Positions 14,900 to 23,634 of a stretch of DNA of 56,459 nt are shown one piece after another (the stretch's first letter is position 1; the number at the start of each line of letters is the position of its first letter). Position numbers and translations under genes: made by a program. The stretch spans positions 1-56,459 of the forward strand of contig JAITVH010000067.1 in NCBI GenBank assembly GCA_031285905.1, given 5' to 3'. Source of the stretch: Prevotella sp. GTDB lineage: Bacteria > Bacteroidota > Bacteroidia > Bacteroidales > Dysgonomonadaceae. Below the pieces are notes generated by a model. That model was not told the origin of the DNA, ran no database searches, and saw only the letters and a program-made list of their open reading frames with translations.

Positions 14900-15079
14900 A
14901 TGAAAAATGTAAGAAATTTACAATTAAAAGATGTTGAAGCATTGACTGACATCAAATTAATGTCAACGGGCTGCGGTTGCGGTTCGATGCAGGGAGACGG
15001 AACCAGTGCCGAAAAATGCATGCCGTATGTTGTATATGACGATATGATTAACAGAGGTATATCTATCAAAAATGTATAG
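14900..15079 (+). CDS. Short leader-type ORF, 5' part of an amber-interrupted gene
   Basis: The ATG at 14900 opens 59 codons ending in TAG at 15077-15079. The start MKNVRNLQLKDVEALTD is like the leaders of Bacteroidetes natural-product precursors (double-Gly/TIGR04149 style), and a Gly/Cys-rich STGCGCGSM follows. The leader of the precursor gene ending at 19407 has the same MKxxxNLxL opening. The frame continues without another stop from the TAG to 15667, so this is probably the N-terminal part of one longer protein rather than a free 59-residue peptide. Upstream, 14738-14899 is AT-rich with no gene. Confidence 0.6.
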   Translation: MKNVRNLQLKDVEALTDIKLMSTGCGCGSMQGDGTSAEKCMPYVVYDDMINRGISIKNV

Positions 15080-15112
15080 GTATGCGGCCTCGGGTATGTA
15101 ACCGGTGACAAT

Positions 15113-15667
15113 GTGTGGATATGGGGCTCAGGCAGTGACTCGGGTAGTGGCGGTTCCATATGGAATGATACTTCCCAAGATCCGTCGAGCCTGATGGATA
15201 TCGATTGTATCCTCAGAAGTTTCTGGCATGTTGGTTACGACCAGTTTAGATGCAATGATCTTAATTTATCTTATTCCAGAATAGCTGCTATGTATAATAG
15301 CCAGTTTAACACAAATATTGTAAATGATGGTGGGGTAAAGGTAAAGAATGTAACCGCATTTTTCGCTAAATATTTTGAATTTGGAGAATCGTTTCCTGTC
15401 GATAATCTGGCGAGTGAGTATGCCAATAAGACCTTTAATGGAAATATGCATGCCATCACTAAACAAACGAGTAATGGTAAAACACGATACCACTCGGTAA
15501 TCATTAAAGAAATCAGAAGCGGGAAGATATTTATCCATGACCCGTCAGCAGACGGAAATGAAAAAAATTATAATGTAAACTTTAGTGAAGCATCGACAAA
15601 GCTATATGGCAATATATTTACCTTGACCGGAGCCAGGGCTTGCAGTTCAGGTGGTTCCGGCTATTGA
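15113..15667 (+). pseudogene. Papain/C39-like domain, 3' part of an amber-interrupted gene
   Basis: These 184 codons are in the same frame as the leader ORF that ends at 15079. The only nearby start is GTG 15113, with no ATG until Met27 or so. A Gly-Ser spacer (WGSGSDSGSGGS) leads into a domain with a plausible papain-type triad: Cys in LMDIDCILRSF with an upstream Gln (TSQDP), His in RYHSVIIKEI and Asp in IFIHDPS. That order and the His-to-Asp spacing resemble C39-like peptidases. The C-terminus is ACSSGGSGY. I infer a leader-guided secreted cysteine-protease-like effector broken by one codon change (for example TAT to TAG). It could still be made from GTG, but nothing around that codon supports it. 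Confidence 0.55.
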
Positions 15668-16710: not shown

Positions 16711-18555
16711 TTAGTGTTGTTTTTGCTCTATAACTTTTCTAAAGAAAGTTATTAAATCAGGCAGGTGATAATCGAAACTAAATTCGTAGCGTTTCTCCAT
16801 CAAGTTCTTACGTAGAGTATCCATATGCTTTTTATCTTTCAACTGGTGGCATAAGTCATCAATGTCATTGAAAAATATCCCAACATTTTTTTGTTTCGCT
16901 ATATTCTGCATAGCTACAATGTGCCCAGCATTATTCTTCTGTATCATAGGTAAACCTGCCATTGCTAAAGTTGTCATTCTGGCCGGAATATTTAAATCTT
17001 CCCAGTTTGCATTCAACAAATTGCCTTCATTACTACTATCGAAATAATGTAGCCATCCGGCATCATATTGAGAAAATTCTTTTACCCAATTTGCAGGAAT
17101 ACAGTGAGGATGTAGATGAATATGATCAGGGTTTAGCCTTCTTAAATGATGGAGGTAGCCCATTTTGTAATCATGATAATTTTCAGTATATATATGGATA
17201 TGGATATTTTGTTGAGCCAATGCCTGCGTATGCTGAGGGGTGATGCCTACCAGCCTCCCCGGCATAACAGTGTGTATTTCTCCATCCGATTCAGAAAGAC
17301 GTTTTGATAATTTTTTATTAAAATAATCCATTTTTGGGAGATCTCCATCTAAAATGAATGACGATCCTGTTTTTGGAATATATTGTTCAAACCATGCTTT
17401 TACATCTTCATTAATGAATATTTTACCATCGGCATGTGTATATAAATACGCCAGTTTTTTCCAAAATCCTTCACGAATGGCATGAAAAGCACTTTCTTTA
17501 AAATGCCAGACAAAAGGTATCTCAGGGAAATTTCTGAGGACATCATAAGCAAGGGGAATAACCCCAAAATTTAATAATCCATATATTATATCCGGCTTGA
17601 TTTCTTTGATCTTATTTTTATAATCTTCGTATGGGATATCGATCACATTTCCGAAAGGAAGAGGCCCCACAGTAGTACTGCAATAGGTTGGTCTTTCCAT
17701 CCATAGTCCATATAGTTGATGCCCGGCTTCTTCCAAGGCATAAATTCTGTCCGGATTAAATGCCAGTTCTCCTACTAATAATATTTTGAGGGATTTTTTT
17801 GTGGGCGTTATCTTTTTTCGGAAATTTTTATAAATCTCTTCTTCGTTAGTGAATTTATAATCAGACACCCGTATTTTTATCGGTTTCTGAACTTTATAGA
17901 AACTCCTATAGAGATTAATCCCTCCTCCATACCTTTCACTGATAAGTTTGTGTCTTTGATGCGGATGATTGGTCCAGAAAGAGGTTATTTTATTAGTAGG
18001 AATAAAAGTTCCTTTGTCTTCCAGCTTATTCCAGAACATCAGATATAAGTTCTCTGTGACATATTCATTTCTTTCTACCCATTTATCTTTAGTCTTTTTA
18101 TGTGCAGTCTGGACTAATTGTAAGCTGTATCCTTCCCTAAAACCTAATGTTTCATATTTTTCAGGCCGGGCTACTGTATCATGAAGATCATATTGCATTC
18201 CACTATATACCAATATCGCATCAGGAGATTCTTCGAATTTTTCTTTTAGCTCTTTCAAATGATCAACATAAAAAAGATCGTCTGAAGGGAGATAGGCAAT
18301 ATAATCATATTTTGCAACAGCTAATCCTTGATTTATTGCATTTCCCATTCCCTGATTTGTTTGATTCCTTATATATCTAATGTTGGGATATGATTCTAAA
18401 TAATCAACTATAATATCTTTTGTATTATCTGTGCTTCCATCGTCAACTATTATTAACTCCCAATCTTCATAAGTTTGTTTTATCAAGCTTAGAATTGCGC
18501 CTCTTATAAATTCACTTTGGTTATAAGTCGGCATTATTACAGAAAATCCATTCAT
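16711..18555 (-). CDS. Two-part glycosyltransferase: GT2 domain plus C-terminal GT-B-like half
   Basis: The 614-residue protein starts with a GT-A fold GT2 domain (FSVIMPTYNQS, IIVDDGSTDNT near residues 34-44, AYLPSDDLF near 92-100) covering about 1-230. A linker leads to a second half beginning near KKSLKILLVGELAF (about 265) that looks like a GT-B (GT4-like) enzyme, with PGRLVGITP and MAGLPMIQKN segments. Fusions of this sort often make or extend short glycans. It is the last gene of a four-gene minus-strand cluster, 45 bases after the GT32-type gene. The cluster's Gly-Ser-rich precursor makes O-glycosylation of that product an attractive but unproven role. Domain calls are good; substrate is unknown. 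Confidence 0.8.
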   Translation of the reverse strand: MNGFSVIMPTYNQSEFIRGAILSLIKQTYEDWELIIVDDGSTDNTKDIIVDYLESYPNIRYIRNQTNQGMGNAINQGLAVAKYDYIAYLPSDDLFYVDHLKELKEKFEESPDAILVYSGMQYDLHDTVARPEKYETLGFREGYSLQLVQTAHKKTKDKWVERNEYVTENLYLMFWNKLEDKGTFIPTNKITSFWTNHPHQRHKLISERYGGGINLYRSFYKVQKPIKIRVSDYKFTNEEEIYKNFRKKITPTKKSLKILLVGELAFNPDRIYALEEAGHQLYGLWMERPTYCSTTVGPLPFGNVIDIPYEDYKNKIKEIKPDIIYGLLNFGVIPLAYDVLRNFPEIPFVWHFKESAFHAIREGFWKKLAYLYTHADGKIFINEDVKAWFEQYIPKTGSSFILDGDLPKMDYFNKKLSKRLSESDGEIHTVMPGRLVGITPQHTQALAQQNIHIHIYTENYHDYKMGYLHHLRRLNPDHIHLHPHCIPANWVKEFSQYDAGWLHYFDSSNEGNLLNANWEDLNIPARMTTLAMAGLPMIQKNNAGHIVAMQNIAKQKNVGIFFNDIDDLCHQLKDKKHMDTLRKNLMEKRYEFSFDYHLPDLITFFRKVIEQKQH

Positions 18556-18600
18556 AATTTTATATTGTTTAATGTGTTTTGATAAATACTTTATTTTTTA

Positions 18601-19296
18601 TTAGAGTTGTGATACCCATCCATTAAAAAAATAATGAATAGAATATGCATCTTTTAGTTTGTTTTTGATTTCTTCTGAAAAAACTCCTCTTATTTTATTA
18701 AAACCTTCTTTTTTAGTCAATGGGGATGTATATTGAGGAGGAATTAGATAAATATTTTCTTTATCTTCATAGCTCATATAAAGATCAACAAGCATAAGAG
18801 GCCCTGTTGTATGAAGTACATTTGTCGCATTTGTTGCATTGGGGCTGTGATTGAATGTTTTTTCAATTACTTTTTTCATAAATGGATGTTCCGGGATTGA
18901 AGCCATTAATGCATTATTGAAATAGACCTCTGTATGGTACATTTTTTGATGTTCTTCCGGTTCTAGTGAAAAACAACATTCTTTATTTTCTAAAAGTTTG
19001 TCTAAAGGTTTTAAACATTCAGAATCGAAGTCTACATACACTCCCCCAATCTTGTCTAAAATCAAATATCGGATAGCATCCCAACGTTGTACATTGTAAT
19101 GGAAACTGTTATAAATCTCCCAATATTGAGGATAATATTCCAGAATGAAATCATTCATTTTTTGATTATCCCATAATATATATTCCCATGTAGGATGATA
19201 ATTTTTCCATGTATTTCCCAATATTCTAAACCCATTAGGTAGAGGTTCATCTATTCCAGACCAGATTTGATGAATAATTTTTGGTATTCTTTTCAT
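18601..19296 (-). CDS. GT32-type glycosyltransferase with DXD motif
   Basis: This 231-residue enzyme resembles the GT32 group (OCH1/capsular sugar transferases). PKIIHQIWSG near the start is the hallmark opening, WKNYHPTWEYILWD follows, and GGVYVDFDSECLKPLD carries the DXD (Asp89-Phe-Asp91) that binds metal and nucleotide sugar. FNNALMASIPEHPF and the late TTGPLML stretch also fit. It has no membrane segment, so it acts in the cytoplasm. It follows the cysteine-rich precursor gene by 110 bases with a strong hairpin between, and precedes the larger glycosyltransferase by 45 bases. Confidence 0.88.
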   Translation of the reverse strand: MKRIPKIIHQIWSGIDEPLPNGFRILGNTWKNYHPTWEYILWDNQKMNDFILEYYPQYWEIYNSFHYNVQRWDAIRYLILDKIGGVYVDFDSECLKPLDKLLENKECCFSLEPEEHQKMYHTEVYFNNALMASIPEHPFMKKVIEKTFNHSPNATNATNVLHTTGPLMLVDLYMSYEDKENIYLIPPQYTSPLTKKEGFNKIRGVFSEEIKNKLKDAYSIHYFFNGWVSQL

Positions 19297-19360
19297 GTCG
19301 CTTTTTTATTATGGTTATAAATTTCCTCCCAAAAAGAAGAAGGTTTATACTTTTGTGTTT

Positions 19361-19394
19361 ATAATCCATCCTTGATAGAGCAAGGATGGATTAT
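19361..19394. terminator. Perfect 14-bp hairpin between precursor and glycosyltransferase genes
   Basis: ATAATCCATCCTTG (19361-19374) and CAAGGATGGATTAT (19381-19394) are perfect arms with a 6-base loop. It begins 13 bases past the precursor stop on the minus strand. There is no clear T run, so partial termination or 3' end protection, raising precursor mRNA over the enzyme genes, is as likely as full termination. Confidence 0.6.
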
Positions 19395-19406
19395 AGTAAT
19401 TATTTA

Positions 19407-19985
19407 TTATTTATAACAAACACAATGGTTGCCAGATGCAACACATCGTCCTGTGTGGCCGTTTACCTTACAACTACCACCACACAGGCTACCGCTATAA
19501 TAACAACCTGTACTAGAATCAGAGCCTGTACTAGAATCAGGGTCTGTACCCGATCCTGAACCTGATCCTTCAGTTGTCTTACACGTACAATAGCTGCCAG
19601 ACCAAACACATCGTCCCCAGCCATTACTACATGTTCCCCCACAAGCGGCATTTCCCAAACTGTCACATTTGTCATGTCCGTCATTATTGGGAAATCTAGG
19701 ATTGTAAAACTGATCGTAACTTGTGTCACAAATACAATTGACTCCTGCATTATTACTCACGACAGGTGCGCAATAACCGAATCTTCCACGCTCCTGACAA
19801 GCACCTCCACAGTTAATGTGTTGTGTGCCACAATTGACAAAATTAAGCCAATTGCCTGATCCTGATCCGTAACCTGATCCTGATCCATAACCTGATCCTG
19901 ATCCACTTCCATACATACTCATAAACACTGTAGCGCCTTGGATTTCATTTAATGACGCCAACTTTAAATTTTTAAAAATTTTCAT
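19407..19985 (-). CDS. Precursor with three tandem defensin-like (CS-alpha-beta pattern) domains
   Basis: The 192-residue protein starts with a leader-like MKIFKNLKLASLNEIQGA, then a (YGSGSG)n stretch (about residues 25-44), then three cysteine blocks. Block 1 is C52, C59, C63, C72, C84, C86; block 2 is C107, C115, C119, C126, C133, C135; block 3 is C161, C168, C172, C181, C188, C190. Each has the order C, CxxxC, C, CxC, with CGG at the CxxxC and a GxC before the last pair, as in defensin CS-alpha-beta folds with their gamma-core. A second linker (GSGSGSG then Asp/Ser/Thr-rich, about 140-160) separates blocks 2 and 3. There are no other cysteines. It lies 96 bases after the VKOR-thioredoxin gene and before two glycosyltransferases. 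I infer an exported disulfide-rich peptide, perhaps cut into three. No such bacterial family is known to me. Confidence 0.8.
   Translation of the reverse strand: MKIFKNLKLASLNEIQGATVFMSMYGSGSGSGYGSGSGYGSGSGNWLNFVNCGTQHINCGGACQERGRFGYCAPVVSNNAGVNCICDTSYDQFYNPRFPNNDGHDKCDSLGNAACGGTCSNGWGRCVWSGSYCTCKTTEGSGSGSGTDPDSSTGSDSSTGCYYSGSLCGGSCKVNGHTGRCVASGNHCVCYK
19506..19541 (-). repeat. 18-bp tandem repeat in the second linker
   Basis: Two consecutive 18-base units (CCTGTACTAGAATCAGAG and a copy with one change) encode the Ser/Thr/Asp-rich linker before the third cysteine block; a degenerate third unit follows. In-frame gain or loss would alter linker length only. Confidence 0.7.
19855..19908 (-). 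repeat. 18-bp tandem repeat encoding YGSGSG
   Basis: Three units of CCTGATCCTGATCCGTAA (second and third slightly diverged) encode the N-terminal Tyr-Gly-Ser-Gly-Ser-Gly repeats of the cysteine-rich precursor. Units are a multiple of three, so slippage would change linker length without breaking the frame. Confidence 0.85.
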
Positions 19986-20081
19986 AAAAAAAGATTTTTA
20001 TTGTTGTAGGTTTTGTTATTTATAAGAGATATTCATAAGACCTACTATTAACTCATGGTACCCCTGTTTTATTAAATATTT

Positions 20082-21623
20082 TTAGTCAAGGAAATATTTT
20101 AAATCTTCTATTTTGTATTCATCTGGCCACAAATAACCATTCACCAGGATTGTTGGTGTAAGCATTATTTTTGACTTATGTAGCCATTCTTTATGTTTCT
20201 CGTATTCTTCATTTACAGAGGGATCTTCAATATTTAGATTGTATTTATTAAAGAATTCGTCTCTGTCAAATCTACCTGTTTCATACCAAGCATTATAAAT
20301 ACGATCTGTATCTTGCCTTTTATTGTATAGATATGAAGCGATTAGAAATTTGCAGCTTATATCAAAATCCTTTATGATAGGAGAGAAAATATATTGAACA
20401 CATATTTTATTTTCGAATTGTTTTAATAAAAGAGAAATCTTTTCATGCATCGTAGCGCAATGATAACAATGAGGATTAGAAATAACAGTGATAGTTACAG
20501 GAGCTTCTTGGTTGCCCCAAATAATACTTGATACTCCTTTTTCAATAATATAATTAGGCTGATTTCTTAAGATTACTCCAAATACATCTCCTCTTAATCG
20601 TAGTTTTTTATCTTCATTAGTTTGTTGCTCAAGATTTTGTTTTGTAGTAATTAGCTTTACTAAAAAATGTATTAGAATGAATGGCAAGACAAAAATCCAA
20701 CCTGTAGAAATAATATCCATTATCGAAATATGGAGTAAAAATGGCCTATAAAAAACTAGATTAAGAATAAAAATAACCCATAATAAAGCTTGAATGATAA
20801 GACACATCGGACACCATTGCCTGACTTTAAATTTTTGATACCAAATGCTCCAGAAAGTATATGGTAAACCACATATATTAATAAGCGCAGAATAGAAAAG
20901 TAGAGAAGGAAAAAAGAACAGAATTATCAGGTTTGACAAGAAATAGCTTAGACCTACTTCACTCCATCCTATTACTCCCATAAGTTTGGCTGCAGGTGAC
21001 TCTAATACATTGTCGCAACTGCTATTCTTGAAAAAATTACATATTTTATTCGCTTGATTATTAGATATATGCATCTGTTTAGTTAGCAGTAGTCCTGATA
21101 TATAGATACCAATTATATTAGGAATAAATAAAATAATGAATAGTAGATTGTCAATTTGATTTTGAACAAACCCAAATATTAAAGCAATCAATATCATTGT
21201 CAAAAAGATAATTTTTGATCCTTTATCCAATAAATATTCTAGTTTATTTATTTTGTAATTCGGTTCTACTGATTTTTTATTAGGAGATAAAATTAAGGCT
21301 TCCCCATTCCATTCATTATTAAATTTATCGACGTCTTCAGTTATTTTTTTGCCTTGGTATTTGTATGAAACTTTGTCGTTTTTCAATCCTGATACGATTA
21401 TGAAGTTGTCCTTTATCTGTGCAATGAAAGGAACTTTCAATTTGTAAATACTTTCTTTTTCTTGGACTCTTATAACAGAGTTCGTAACATTGTATTCTAA
21501 TAGTATTTGGGAAAGTCCCCTTAAATGTTTTTTATAAGGGTGATTCTCAAAAAAATTGCTCGTAAAATCCTTAGTATGTTTTACTTTGAGCATTTTTAAA
21601 GTAGTAGTTAGTATATTTTCCAT
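20082..21623 (-). CDS. Degenerate C39 / VKOR / thioredoxin fusion, thiol oxidase
   Basis: The 513-residue membrane protein has three parts. Residues 1-115 resemble the C39 peptidase domains of bacteriocin exporters (NHPYKKHLRGLSQILLEYNV, a KVPFIAQI strand, NEWNGEALIL) but have no catalytic Cys, so the domain may only bind leaders. Residues 135-325 form a vitamin K epoxide reductase bundle with loop cysteines C195 and C203 and the CPMC site (C271-C274). Residues 365-513 are a thioredoxin/DsbA-like domain with CYHC (C386-C389). VKOR-Trx fusions make disulfides on exported proteins and pass electrons to quinone. Being first in the cluster, directly before an 18-cysteine precursor, it is the obvious oxidase for that product. 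This domain order is known in Bacteroidetes; the pairing is my inference. Confidence 0.87.
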   Translation of the reverse strand: MENILTTTLKMLKVKHTKDFTSNFFENHPYKKHLRGLSQILLEYNVTNSVIRVQEKESIYKLKVPFIAQIKDNFIIVSGLKNDKVSYKYQGKKITEDVDKFNNEWNGEALILSPNKKSVEPNYKINKLEYLLDKGSKIIFLTMILIALIFGFVQNQIDNLLFIILFIPNIIGIYISGLLLTKQMHISNNQANKICNFFKNSSCDNVLESPAAKLMGVIGWSEVGLSYFLSNLIILFFFPSLLFYSALINICGLPYTFWSIWYQKFKVRQWCPMCLIIQALLWVIFILNLVFYRPFLLHISIMDIISTGWIFVLPFILIHFLVKLITTKQNLEQQTNEDKKLRLRGDVFGVILRNQPNYIIEKGVSSIIWGNQEAPVTITVISNPHCYHCATMHEKISLLLKQFENKICVQYIFSPIIKDFDISCKFLIASYLYNKRQDTDRIYNAWYETGRFDRDEFFNKYNLNIEDPSVNEEYEKHKEWLHKSKIMLTPTILVNGYLWPDEYKIEDLKYFLD

Positions 21624-22089
21624 TTTTCTAAAAGTTAAAATGATTTGATTTGTTTACACCTATAGATAAATTCAAATTTAAATTATACACTTTTTTTATG
21701 GTTATAAAATAATATTATGAAATCAATAAATATATAGATGTAATCTATTGATTAGTATCTAAGGTTTTTTTGTTTATAAATATTTGAATTTGAAAGAGAT
21801 AGGAGTATATATAAAAAAAGAATATGTTCGCCTCTGTTGACTTTTGAAGTTGGCAAGATATTTGTCAGTTTTTATCCCTAAAAAGGCATTAAATATTTAT
21901 GAGAAGGGGAAAGGTGCTGAAGTCGCAATAGGTAAATCTGTGGAGAAAGTATTGCTTGTGTTAATATTTGTGATATTAAAATATGAAAAGACTTTATGGT
22001 CACCTGTTTCGGAACAAAGTGCCAGAAAGTTGATATATTTTGAAAAGTTGAAAAAAGATGTTTTACTTCAAGGAGTGTGCAGGTATTAA
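21624..22089. other. Intergenic region with no supported gene
   Basis: This 466-base AT-rich stretch lies between the start of the VKOR-fusion gene and the end of porX. A TAAATTTG -7-like box on the minus strand (21673-21680) could serve the cluster, but no matching -33 box is present. An 81-codon frame opens only at a TTG and has no recognisable product. Confidence 0.5.
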
Positions 22090-23634
22090 TTATTTCCCAG
22101 TCAAAGTAATCAGAGGCACTATCATTTCTTCCATCGAGATACCACCATGCTGGAAAGTATCAGTATAGTATGATGCATAATGATTATAGTTGTTGGGATA
22201 AGCAAAGAAATCATTATTGGTAGCAAAGATGTATTTTGTACTGATATTAGGAGATGGCAGGCCAAATCTTTCGGGTGTATGGATGTCAAACACCTTCTTC
22301 CTGTCATATTCAAGATTTTTCCCTACTTTGTACCGGATATTTGTGTTGACAGACTTGTCCCCAATCACTTTCAGCGGATTTTTTACCCTTACTGTACCAT
22401 GATCGGTAGTCAGTATGATCTTATATCCCATTTCTTTCGCTTTGCGCAAAATATCTGTTGTGCTTGAATGCCTGAACCACGAACGTGTAAGGGAGCGATA
22501 TGCTGCCTCGTCCGATGCCAGTTCTTTTATCATCTTCGATTCGGTGCGTGCATGGGAAAGCATATCAATAAAGTTGATAACAATTACATTTAGCTGTTTG
22601 CCCCCTAAAGAATTTATTTGTTGTAACAGCTTTTCTCCTGCATTGGAAGTCAATAGTTTGTGGTATGAGAATGTATAATCCTTTTTGTTTCTTTCTATTT
22701 GCTTTTGGACTAAAATCTCTTCATTCGAATTCTTACTTTCTTCTTCATTTTCATCTATCCACAGCTCAGGATATAACTTTGCTATTTGTGCTGGCATCAG
22801 CCCTGAGAATATGGCATTTCTTGCATATTGGGTAGCTGTTGGCAGGATACTGAAAAACTCTTCTTCGACAATAGAAAATTCATTGATCAGCAATTCCTTG
22901 ATTTCTTTCCATTGGTCGAGTCGGAAATTGTCAATCAAAACAAAGAATATTTTCTCTCCCTTATCCAATAATGGAAACACCTTTTGAGAGAAGATTTCGG
23001 GGCTTAACAGAGGCTTTTCTTTATCGTGCTGTATCCAACTCTCATAATTGTATTTGATGAACTTGGAAAAGCCTTTATTGGCTTCTTGTATTTGTGTGTG
23101 TAACAGATCAATTAAAGGGTTCTGAGAAAGGGTTAGTTCATTATCCCAGTATATCAGTTTTTTATAAATGTTAATCCAATCTTCGTAGTCTAATGAATCG
23201 CTGATACTCGAGCTTATCTGGCTAAATTCTTCCCGGTATCCTTCCAAAGTTGCTTCTGATACAATATTATCTTTTTCCAGATTTTTCTTCAATGATAATA
23301 ATATCTGGTTTGGATTTACGGGTTTTATCAGATAATCGGCGATTTTCTTGCCAATAGCATGTGTCATGATTCCTTCGTCTTCACTTTTGGTTATCATAAC
23401 CACTGGTATATTGGGATTCATCTCTTTTATGATGGAAAGTGCTTCCAAACCGGAAAGACCGGGCATATGTTCATCCAGGAATACAATGTCGAAAGTTTCG
23501 GTATGGAAGATATCTATTGCATCCTGTCCACTGTTGACAGGTATCACTTCATATCCTTTCTCTTCAAGAAAGAGTATATGCGAACGTAGTATATCTATCT
23601 CATCATCTGCCCAAAGTATCCGTTTCTTCTTCAT
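22090..23634 (-). CDS. porX: PorX, response regulator with PglZ phosphatase-like domain
   Basis: This 514-residue cytoplasmic regulator has the PorX layout. The receiver domain (1-120) has phosphoacceptor Asp54 (VFLDEHMPGL) and the conserved KP near 103. A helical linker leads to a PglZ/alkaline-phosphatase-superfamily domain (about 210-514) with the nucleophile region ILPTATQYARNAIFSGL and metal ligands in LTTDHGTVRVK and QHGGIS. In Porphyromonas, PorX with PorY and SigP controls type IX secretion genes, and it hydrolyses cyclic oligonucleotides. No T9SS structural genes are in this window. Length matches the family (about 518). Confidence 0.93.
   Translation of the reverse strand: MKKKRILWADDEIDILRSHILFLEEKGYEVIPVNSGQDAIDIFHTETFDIVFLDEHMPGLSGLEALSIIKEMNPNIPVVMITKSEDEGIMTHAIGKKIADYLIKPVNPNQILLSLKKNLEKDNIVSEATLEGYREEFSQISSSISDSLDYEDWINIYKKLIYWDNELTLSQNPLIDLLHTQIQEANKGFSKFIKYNYESWIQHDKEKPLLSPEIFSQKVFPLLDKGEKIFFVLIDNFRLDQWKEIKELLINEFSIVEEEFFSILPTATQYARNAIFSGLMPAQIAKLYPELWIDENEEESKNSNEEILVQKQIERNKKDYTFSYHKLLTSNAGEKLLQQINSLGGKQLNVIVINFIDMLSHARTESKMIKELASDEAAYRSLTRSWFRHSSTTDILRKAKEMGYKIILTTDHGTVRVKNPLKVIGDKSVNTNIRYKVGKNLEYDRKKVFDIHTPERFGLPSPNISTKYIFATNNDFFAYPNNYNHYASYYTDTFQHGGISMEEMIVPLITLTGK

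Follow-up and report, generated by a model that had tools for sequence, protein, structure and literature searches.

Four adjacent minus-strand genes in a genome of the Dysgonomonadaceae raise the question of which product they make and how it would be matured and released. They lie on a contig of 56,459 nucleotides (JAITVH010000067.1 of the Prevotella sp. assembly GCA_031285905.1), analysed at its full length and referred to here as the window, which makes up all of contig C53 in a draft genome of 3.65 Mb that is 88.4% complete and 6.1% contaminated. Re-derivation of the open reading frames (ORFs) gave, in a row, proteins of 513, 192, 231 and 614 aa separated by gaps of 96, 110 and 45 bases, the same gene order and gap sizes as in a preliminary description of this DNA:

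20082..21623, minus strand: C39-like/VKOR/thioredoxin fusion, 513 aa, predicted membrane thiol oxidase (ORF, Pfam, alignment, PDB-sequence profile match)
19407..19985, minus strand: precursor, 192 aa, 18 Cys, three six-cysteine blocks (ORF, motif, profile)
18601..19296, minus strand: GT32-type glycosyltransferase (Gly_transf_sug), 231 aa (Pfam)
16711..18555, minus strand: two-part glycosyltransferase, 614 aa, with an N-terminal GT2 and a C-terminal part without Pfam match (Pfam, relatives, PDB)

On balance, and with reserve, we favour the reading that these genes form an operon for the synthesis and maturation of a single secreted product whose three defensin-like units are locked by disulfides. 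In such a pathway the two transferases would act in the cytosol and glycosylate the precursor, with galactofuranose as a possible sugar and the Gly-Ser/Thr linkers as the most likely sites; the leader would then dock on the membrane fusion, at its protease-dead C39-like domain; after export, the thioredoxin domain would oxidise the blocks in the periplasm; and VKOR would re-oxidise the thioredoxin domain through quinone. The product may have an antagonistic, bacteriocin-like role. In what follows, G000 denotes the genome of the window, other G numbers related genomes, C numbers contigs and L numbers individual loci.

The Fusion Keeps Its Redox Cysteines and Lacks the Protease Cysteine

Three domains of the fusion were recognised in Pfam (Peptidase_C39, 6.8e-6; VKOR, 5.8e-15; Thioredoxin_4, 1.7e-10):

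21276..21527, minus strand: C39-like domain without catalytic Cys, presumed leader-docking (Pfam, match coordinates counted from residue 2; no conserved Cys; C39-ABC transporter matches)
20760..21131, minus strand: VKOR domain, with Cys195/203/271/274 in or near it (Pfam; invariant Cys)
20085..20528, minus strand: thioredoxin domain, with C386xxC389 and P490 (Pfam; invariant residues)

In an alignment of 10 fusions, with sequences 39–44% identical to that of the window, the VKOR loop pair C195/C203, the VKOR CxxC C271/C274, the thioredoxin pair C386/C389 and P490 were invariant (10/10), and the six redox cysteines were still invariant (7/7) after fusions of 20–24% identity had been added. The protein thus carries the full set of cysteines of a VKOR-thioredoxin oxidase: the VKOR CxxC, the loop pair and the thioredoxin CxxC. 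Across the same 10 sequences not one cysteine was conserved in the C39-like domain. The Peptidase_C39 match begins at profile position 46 of 133, and both the Pfam and the PDB matches start past the region of the catalytic Cys, which the domain lacks, so that its designation as a degenerate C39 was borne out. About five membrane stretches were seen by eye between the C39-like and thioredoxin parts, an arrangement that would place the former in the cytosol and the latter in the periplasm.

A profile of the C39-like domain matched five C39-ABC bacteriocin transporters in PDB at E ≤ 0.001 (3.9e-6 to 1.1e-5). In such transporters, leader positions −7 and −12 mediate binding to the peptidase domain, which cleaves after GG (PMC6959990; statements on papers cited by PMC number refer to the parts of them that were covered). 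Of the earlier name leader-binding oxidase, the resemblance to these leader-binding domains stands, and binding of a leader by the window protein itself is presumed from it.

Two further fusions occur in the genome of the window: that of C140 (L005:11674-13249) is split over two frames, and that of C120 (L006:1-1123) changes frame and reaches the contig end; a Cys-rich leader peptide (L006:2434-2658) adjoins the latter.

Many Fusion Relatives Stand Beside Cysteine-Rich Leader Peptides

At E ≤ 1e-10 fusion matches were present in 18/101 genomes of the family, its own included, and in 13/62 good genomes, a few of the matches being fragments. A scan of a genome collection gave 149 fusion relatives, of which 80 were listed as loci; L109, a second match on the L108 contig, was excluded, and 79 loci were counted. 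The listed loci belong to Dysgonomonas, Bacteroides, Parabacteroides, Tannerella, Prevotella, Sphingobacterium, Pedobacter and other genera, with one short record labelled Oscillospiraceae, and nine plasmid records carried a fusion match at E ≤ 1e-8.

Neighbours were searched with one to three query sequences per family and bit thresholds chosen by the analyst. The resulting counts are rough, because of these few queries and chosen thresholds and because many loci are cut at contig ends and several stem from the same genome. A leader-type ORF with at least two Cys was found near the fusion in 41/79 loci (strict regex, plus-strand ORFs) and directly behind it in 23/79, or 21/69 of those with at least 1.5 kb there; additional leader-type peptides beyond the strict regex were visible on inspection. 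The 79 loci also contained a C39 exporter (37), HlyD-like (26), LanC-like (24) and GT4-like (17) proteins, UGM (7) and DUF6734 (4). The neighbourhood count proposed earlier for GT32 and GT2 enzymes gave GT32 in 9/79 and a GT2 or two-part match in 4/79, and 26/79 loci had any of four transferase types. In 41 loci at least 8 kb flanked the fusion on either side, and 25 of these had a C39 exporter and 15 a transferase. The proposal of one pathway is supported by these neighbourhoods in other genomes, in which the fusion often lies beside short Cys-rich peptides with GG leaders and transferases recur. A LanC-like protein and, behind it, a GT4-type transferase also recur near fusion and C39 exporter (L073, L104, L111, L135, L144 and others).

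The Precursor Resembles a Single-Copy Peptide Family in Triplicate

The precursor is composed of the following parts:

19911..19985, minus strand: leader region, residues 1-25, no GG site (sequence; leader comparison)
19854..19910, minus strand: Gly-Ser linker 1, residues 26-44 (sequence)
19719..19841, minus strand: six-cysteine block 1 with 3 flanking residues on each side (Cys spacing)
19572..19676, minus strand: six-cysteine block 2 with flanking residues (Cys spacing)
19515..19571, minus strand: Gly-Ser/Thr linker 2 (sequence between blocks 2 and 3)
19410..19514, minus strand: six-cysteine block 3 (Cys spacing; 30 nt 83% identical to block 2)

Its 192 residues include 18 Cys, 36 Gly, 27 Ser and 11 Thr. 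Recomputed Cys count and spacings (C6C3C8C11C1C in block 1, C7C3C6C6C1C in block 2 and C6C3C8C6C1C in block 3) agreed with the 18-cysteine, three-block precursor described before. A six-cysteine motif made from the window blocks occurred in 19 of 7752 distinct ORFs of 40–420 aa, and its reversed form in one, so that its occurrence exceeds chance. Eighteen of the 19 ORFs are single-copy, with GG at the presumed cleavage place in 15, GR in two and AG in one. In leave-one-out profile searches, helped for some genes by near twins in the set, 12/19 genes were found at E ≤ 0.05 for 10,000 sequences, six scored worse (0.079–2.5) and L130 was missed; since L130 was not recovered when left out, its match was treated as spurious, leaving seventeen single-copy peptides. 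The window precursor was matched at E 8.4e-7 for 10,000 sequences by a profile built without its three blocks, and it is therefore best read as three copies of this single-copy peptide family joined by linkers.

The Units Are Probably Defensin-Like

The consensus of the peptides is C...C[SG]GxC...GxxGxC...CxC, and the three blocks all show the CS-alpha-beta spacing (C...CxxxC...C...CxC with a GxC gamma-core). Block 1 departs from the 3–9 residues usual between C4 and C5 in CS-alpha-beta defensins, with 11 at this place. When the six-cysteine profile was compared with PDB up to E 10, two matches were obtained, Defensin-1 (5nce, E 1.1) and defensin-like protein 204 (7jn6, E 2.6), both of which we take to be plant proteins. 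The reversed profile also matched PDB at similar E (fibrinogen, 0.58 and 1.3), so the E-values mean little and it is the identity of the matched proteins that counts. In Pfam, 21 members gave Toxin_3 twice (2.8e-3), PSI (plexin repeat) twice (best 2.9e-4), Gamma-thionin once (0.011), and SLR1-BP, FXa_inhibition and FKBP26_IF once each; their reversed versions gave DUF7921 (0.0056) and Metallothio, once each. In NCBIfam, one of four GG peptides searched whole matched actinodefensin (0.0012; 19.4 bits of the 65 bits of the cut-off), and the 21 cores matched actinodefensin once (0.075) and one unrelated model once, the reversed cores matching one unrelated model (0.075). No plant defensin, actinodefensin, Toxin_3 or Gamma-thionin match arose from the reversed controls. 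Neither block 3 alone nor the whole window precursor matched a defensin family in Pfam or NCBIfam. A search of PDB with the whole precursor was set aside as a guide to defensin identity: none of the 14 sequences that it gave up to E 10 was a defensin, and the matches mainly covered the Gly-Ser linker.

The cysteine spacing, together with weak and specific profile matches, points to a CS-alpha-beta, defensin-like unit. The earlier term defensin-like is thereby upheld for the spacing and for weak CS-alpha-beta family matches absent from reversed controls, and as a statement on the fold it is a prediction. It is a serious, if lesser, possibility that the fusion does oxidise the precursor and that the blocks adopt another small disulfide fold, knottin- or EGF-like, with no kinship to defensins. 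All profile links to known defensins are weak, with E from 0.0012 to 2.6 and scores below curated cut-offs; the actinodefensin match of the whole peptide is far under its cut-off and that of the core alone reaches 0.075 in one of the 21 members, PSI and FXa_inhibition match as well, and the Gly-rich CxxxC segment is unusual for a helix. What speaks against another fold is that C-C3-C ... GxC ... CxC is the CS-alpha-beta spacing, and that both PDB matches up to E 10 were plant defensins whereas the reversed profile led to fibrinogen.

Transferases Recur in Peptide Loci

The third gene product matched Gly_transf_sug in Pfam (1.1e-17), and the N-terminal part of the fourth matched Glycos_transf_2 (2.1e-38); the C-terminal part of the latter matched no Pfam family. 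Nearest to that N-terminal part among solved structures was chondroitin synthase, followed by other glycosyltransferases, and residues of the two-part enzyme are conserved among its relatives. A census of 25 Dysgonomonas genomes (93.9 Mb, window included) found GT32 in six (11 matches), DUF6734 in four (4 matches) and UGM in nine (13 matches, 12 genes). The two-part enzyme was present as seven full-length copies in five genomes, namely that of the window and six relatives of 54–72% identity, one with an internal stop, besides seven short GT2-only matches. Within 5 kb of a fusion or C39 exporter lay 5/7 two-part enzymes (0.025 expected), 4/11 GT32 (0.039 expected), 2/4 DUF6734 (0.014 expected) and 2/12 UGM genes (0.043 expected); excluding the window, the counts at this distance were 4/6 for two-part enzymes and 3/10 for GT32. 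Within 10 kb there were 6/7 two-part enzymes (0.048 expected), and the seventh (G015:C3) is accompanied by GT32, UGM, DUF6734 and a GSG-type leader protein (a protein with Gly-Ser-Gly repeats; see below) that bears a C39-like domain. Judged from these gene neighbourhoods, the transferases clearly belong to this class of peptide locus.

UGM makes UDP-galactofuranose. A UGM gene adjoins six of the seven two-part enzymes, at five places, and all five genomes with a two-part enzyme have one, that of the window on contig C168; this association is the reason for proposing galactofuranose as a plausible transferred sugar. DUF6734 gave two phosphatase matches in PDB at E 0.17, which were taken as chance; its conserved DGD suggests a GT-A enzyme.

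It seems unlikely that the transferases serve cell-surface polysaccharide synthesis and adjoin the peptide genes by chance or through shared regulation. GT2, GT32 and UGM are indeed typical of capsule and O-antigen loci, and 7/12 UGM genes of the 25 genomes are not beside a two-part enzyme; against this, each of the seven full-length two-part enzymes either belongs to a peptide or C39-exporter locus or has a leader protein next to it, and the ORF list of the window operon holds no further capsule genes. As for the glycosylation suggested as possible at the outset, the transferases do recur in such loci, and the Gly-Ser/Thr linkers would be its likely sites. In the 79 loci, GT32, GT2 or DUF6734 accompanied long Gly-Ser linkers in 2/3 loci and occurred in 11/76 without such linkers, an association that is not significant (p = 0.069); a C39 exporter was found in 0/3 loci with long linkers versus 37/76 without.

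The Leader Has No GG Site and No Dedicated Exporter Was Found

The window leader region runs ...MSMYGSGSG and has no GG site. In 51 GG leaders position −12 was L, M, I or F in 51/51, and E(−8) was present in 50/51, partly imposed by the regex. Among 14 GSG-type leaders, nine, the window leader included, had a hydrophobic pair of docking spacing from residue 14 or 15, with E(−8) in 0/9; of the rest, one had the pair at residue 24, one at residue 10 together with E(−8), and three had none. The window leader (I15/V20) fits the docking spacing loosely. The NCBIfam model TIGR04149, which describes GG leaders of Bacteroidota, was passed at its cut-off by 3/4 GG peptides tested and is not matched by the window precursor; the name of this model implies radical SAM, and none was seen in the window operon.

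The preliminary description saw no dedicated exporter in the window, and no C39-ABC exporter ORF lies beside the four genes. A C39 family search showed that the only C39 domains in the genome of the window are those of the three fusions, and G025 likewise has none outside fusions. A search with ABC_membrane for a dedicated exporter led to four places, rejected as resembling general exporters common to one or both of two relatives. Several findings weigh against the operon reading, in addition to those given above on fold. No dedicated exporter was found in the window's genome (88.4% complete) or in G025 (99% complete); many of the 79 loci have no recognised peptide directly behind the fusion; the six-cysteine profile found the window only (1/395 phylum genomes, E ≤ 1e-3), in a search that is insensitive, 7/19 held-out genes having scored worse than 0.05 or been missed; UGM is not beside the window operon; the linker association just mentioned falls short of significance; and a hairpin between precursor and GT32 genes (see below) could uncouple transferase expression from that of the precursor.

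That the system is decaying, with GG site and exporter lost and no product released, is in our view still less probable than a role of the transferases in surface polysaccharides. Such decay would account for the missing C39 exporter and for three damaged genes, the fusion of C140 in two frames, that of C120 frame-shifted to the contig end and a GSG-type gene of the window split by a stop, but the four window genes are open and the fusion and the two-part enzyme keep conserved residues. Moreover, G025, 99% complete as compared with the 88% of the window draft, also has a fusion, a non-GG precursor and no C39 exporter, so the non-GG, exporter-less state is shared.

Gly-Ser-Gly Proteins With Varied C-Terminal Parts

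The genome of the window holds eleven GSG-type genes on nine contigs: C7, C22, C25, C47, C66, C75, C94, C140 (two) and the window (two). They share Gly-Ser-Gly repeats, and their C-terminal parts are highly diverse; a short leader is visible in 10/11, the gene on C75 beginning at a contig end. Six of the proteins were compared with Pfam; five had no match and one had two weak zinc-ribbon-type matches. The dispersed genes are possibly a polymorphic set of exported proteins. Their number and varied C-terminal parts favour an explanation that we regard as possible, though on the doubtful side, in which the transferases decorate the Gly-Ser linkers of all GSG-type proteins, these being surface or effector proteins and not antimicrobials. 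GSG- or ASG-type proteins indeed have GT32 and/or DUF6734 as neighbours in Bacteroides bouchesdurhonensis, the window, G025, G015:C3 and G014:C12, and G000:C94 has a DUF6734 together with two GT32, next to which no leader gene was recognised. However, transferases occur too in loci that have GG peptides and C39 exporters and lack a long Gly-Ser linker, and none was recognised by eye in 19.9 kb around the GSG-type genes of C140.

A wider proposal, speculative and rather improbable as a whole, joins the operon reading to these proteins. A branch of Bacteroidota systems without C39 exporter would have GSG leaders that keep the docking spacing, mostly lose E(−8) and lack GG; they would dock uncut on the protease-dead C39-VKOR-thioredoxin oxidase, receive galactofuranose on their Gly-Ser linkers, and take concatenated defensin-like units, along with other cargo (papain-like; by eye JAB- and zincin-like), out of the cell by another route.

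Further features of GSG-type proteins were observed. By eye, their C-terminal parts include zinc ribbons and JAB-like domains (loci L060–L066 and L005). The second GSG-type gene of the window (14900-15667, plus strand) is split by an in-frame TAG stop at 15077-15079. Of its two parts, the first is related to a C140 protein (1.5e-21) and the second looks weakly C39-like (Pfam 0.034, under cut-off). Small related proteins with Sec-like starts (by eye) follow JAB-like GSG proteins (L066:8575-11451, L065:1253-2412), and an orphan piece of a GSG C-terminal part lies at L066:9814-10158, an arrangement that resembles toxin-immunity cassettes. A Peptidase_MA-like protein (Pfam 1.4e-5, under cut-off) adjoins GSG- or ASG-type precursors in three genomes (L005:14176-15782, L078:6861-8453, L170:1174-2823). 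Besides a fusion and a GT32, the Bacteroides bouchesdurhonensis locus L114:4181-12873 contains two DUF6734 and a pair of GSG-type proteins, of which one shows HExxH by eye, and no C39 exporter was found in its 21.6 kb. In Dysgonomonas sp. ZJ279, the gene directly behind a fusion and a DUF6734 gene (L071:10990-11910) encodes a leader protein of 306 residues that has a very long GSG run and a C-terminal part that looks papain-like by eye.

Signals and Composition Around the Operon

The GC content of the operon region is 0.26–0.37 per kb, below the window mean of 0.383, and may reflect acquisition. A TAnnTTTG box, presumably the promoter motif of Bacteroidota, precedes the fusion gene, and the gap between the precursor and GT32 genes holds a hairpin of −21 kcal/mol (z −7.65):

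21673..21680, minus strand: promoter-like TAnnTTTG box upstream of the fusion
19359..19396, no strand assigned: hairpin between precursor and GT32 gene

PorX, a response regulator of the type IX secretion system (NCBIfam 5.7e-242), is encoded upstream of the fusion on the same strand (22090-23634, minus strand).

Relation to Known Systems

Glycocin loci contain thiol oxidases and a SunS-like GT2. Glycocins are Gram-positive and have short cores, whereas the window has GT32 and a two-part GT2, another phylum and another Cys pattern; the GT2 domain there is nearest to chondroitin synthase and other glycosyltransferases among solved structures. A disulfide precursor encoded with a dedicated glycosyltransferase is common to both, as in enterocin F4-9 (PMC8620827).

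Bacteroidetocins (class IIf, Bacteroidales) offer the analogy with the strongest experiment, as deletion of the thiol oxidoreductase attenuates toxin activity, and likewise pair a Cys-containing leader peptide with a thiol oxidoreductase in the locus (PMC6671954). The window system, which also encodes a thiol oxidoreductase, forms a coherent set and may be akin in kind to bacteroidetocin-type disulfide peptides. It differs from the four-Cys, 42-residue core, GG leader, C39-ABC exporter and five-helix membrane protein of bacteroidetocins (PMC6671954) in having 18 Cys in three units, no GG and no C39-ABC exporter ORF beside the operon; no candidate ORF for the five-helix protein was seen there by eye, membrane-helix prediction not having been run. 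The string "glycos" does not occur in the main text of PMC6671954, and no transferases are reported there for bacteroidetocins.

The CxxxC ... GxC ... CxC pattern with gamma-core is shared by bacterial cis-defensins, including actifensin (PMC6989792), actinomycesin (PMC8819291), and xanthusin and others (PMC11561630). In the parts of these papers covered no tandem units are mentioned for them, and the Bacteroidota peptides differ further in having GG-type relatives and a dedicated oxidase. Bacterial defensins have been reported from actinobacteria and myxobacteria (PMC8819291) and, after a signal-peptide filter, as classes from myxobacteria, Proteobacteria and single other cases (PMC11561630); "Bacteroid" does not occur in the main texts of these two surveys. 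Since the surveys filtered for signal peptides (PMC11561630) or began from eukaryotic defensins (PMC8819291), they could have missed GG-leader peptides. In literature listings covering titles or abstract starts, and subscription papers in part, neither a C39-VKOR-thioredoxin fusion nor a Bacteroidota defensin appeared among the matches listed.

The reading favoured here would extend defensin-like peptides to Bacteroidota, a phylum not reported in the covered parts of those surveys (PMC8819291, PMC11561630). If it is true, defensin-like disulfide peptides would be a recurring product of Bacteroidota, and a dedicated maturation enzyme would join leader-reader, quinone-linked oxidase and thioredoxin in one chain. 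The window would then offer a ready system in which to test how Gly-Ser linkers are glycosylated in the cytosol and how leader proteins are exported without a C39 transporter.

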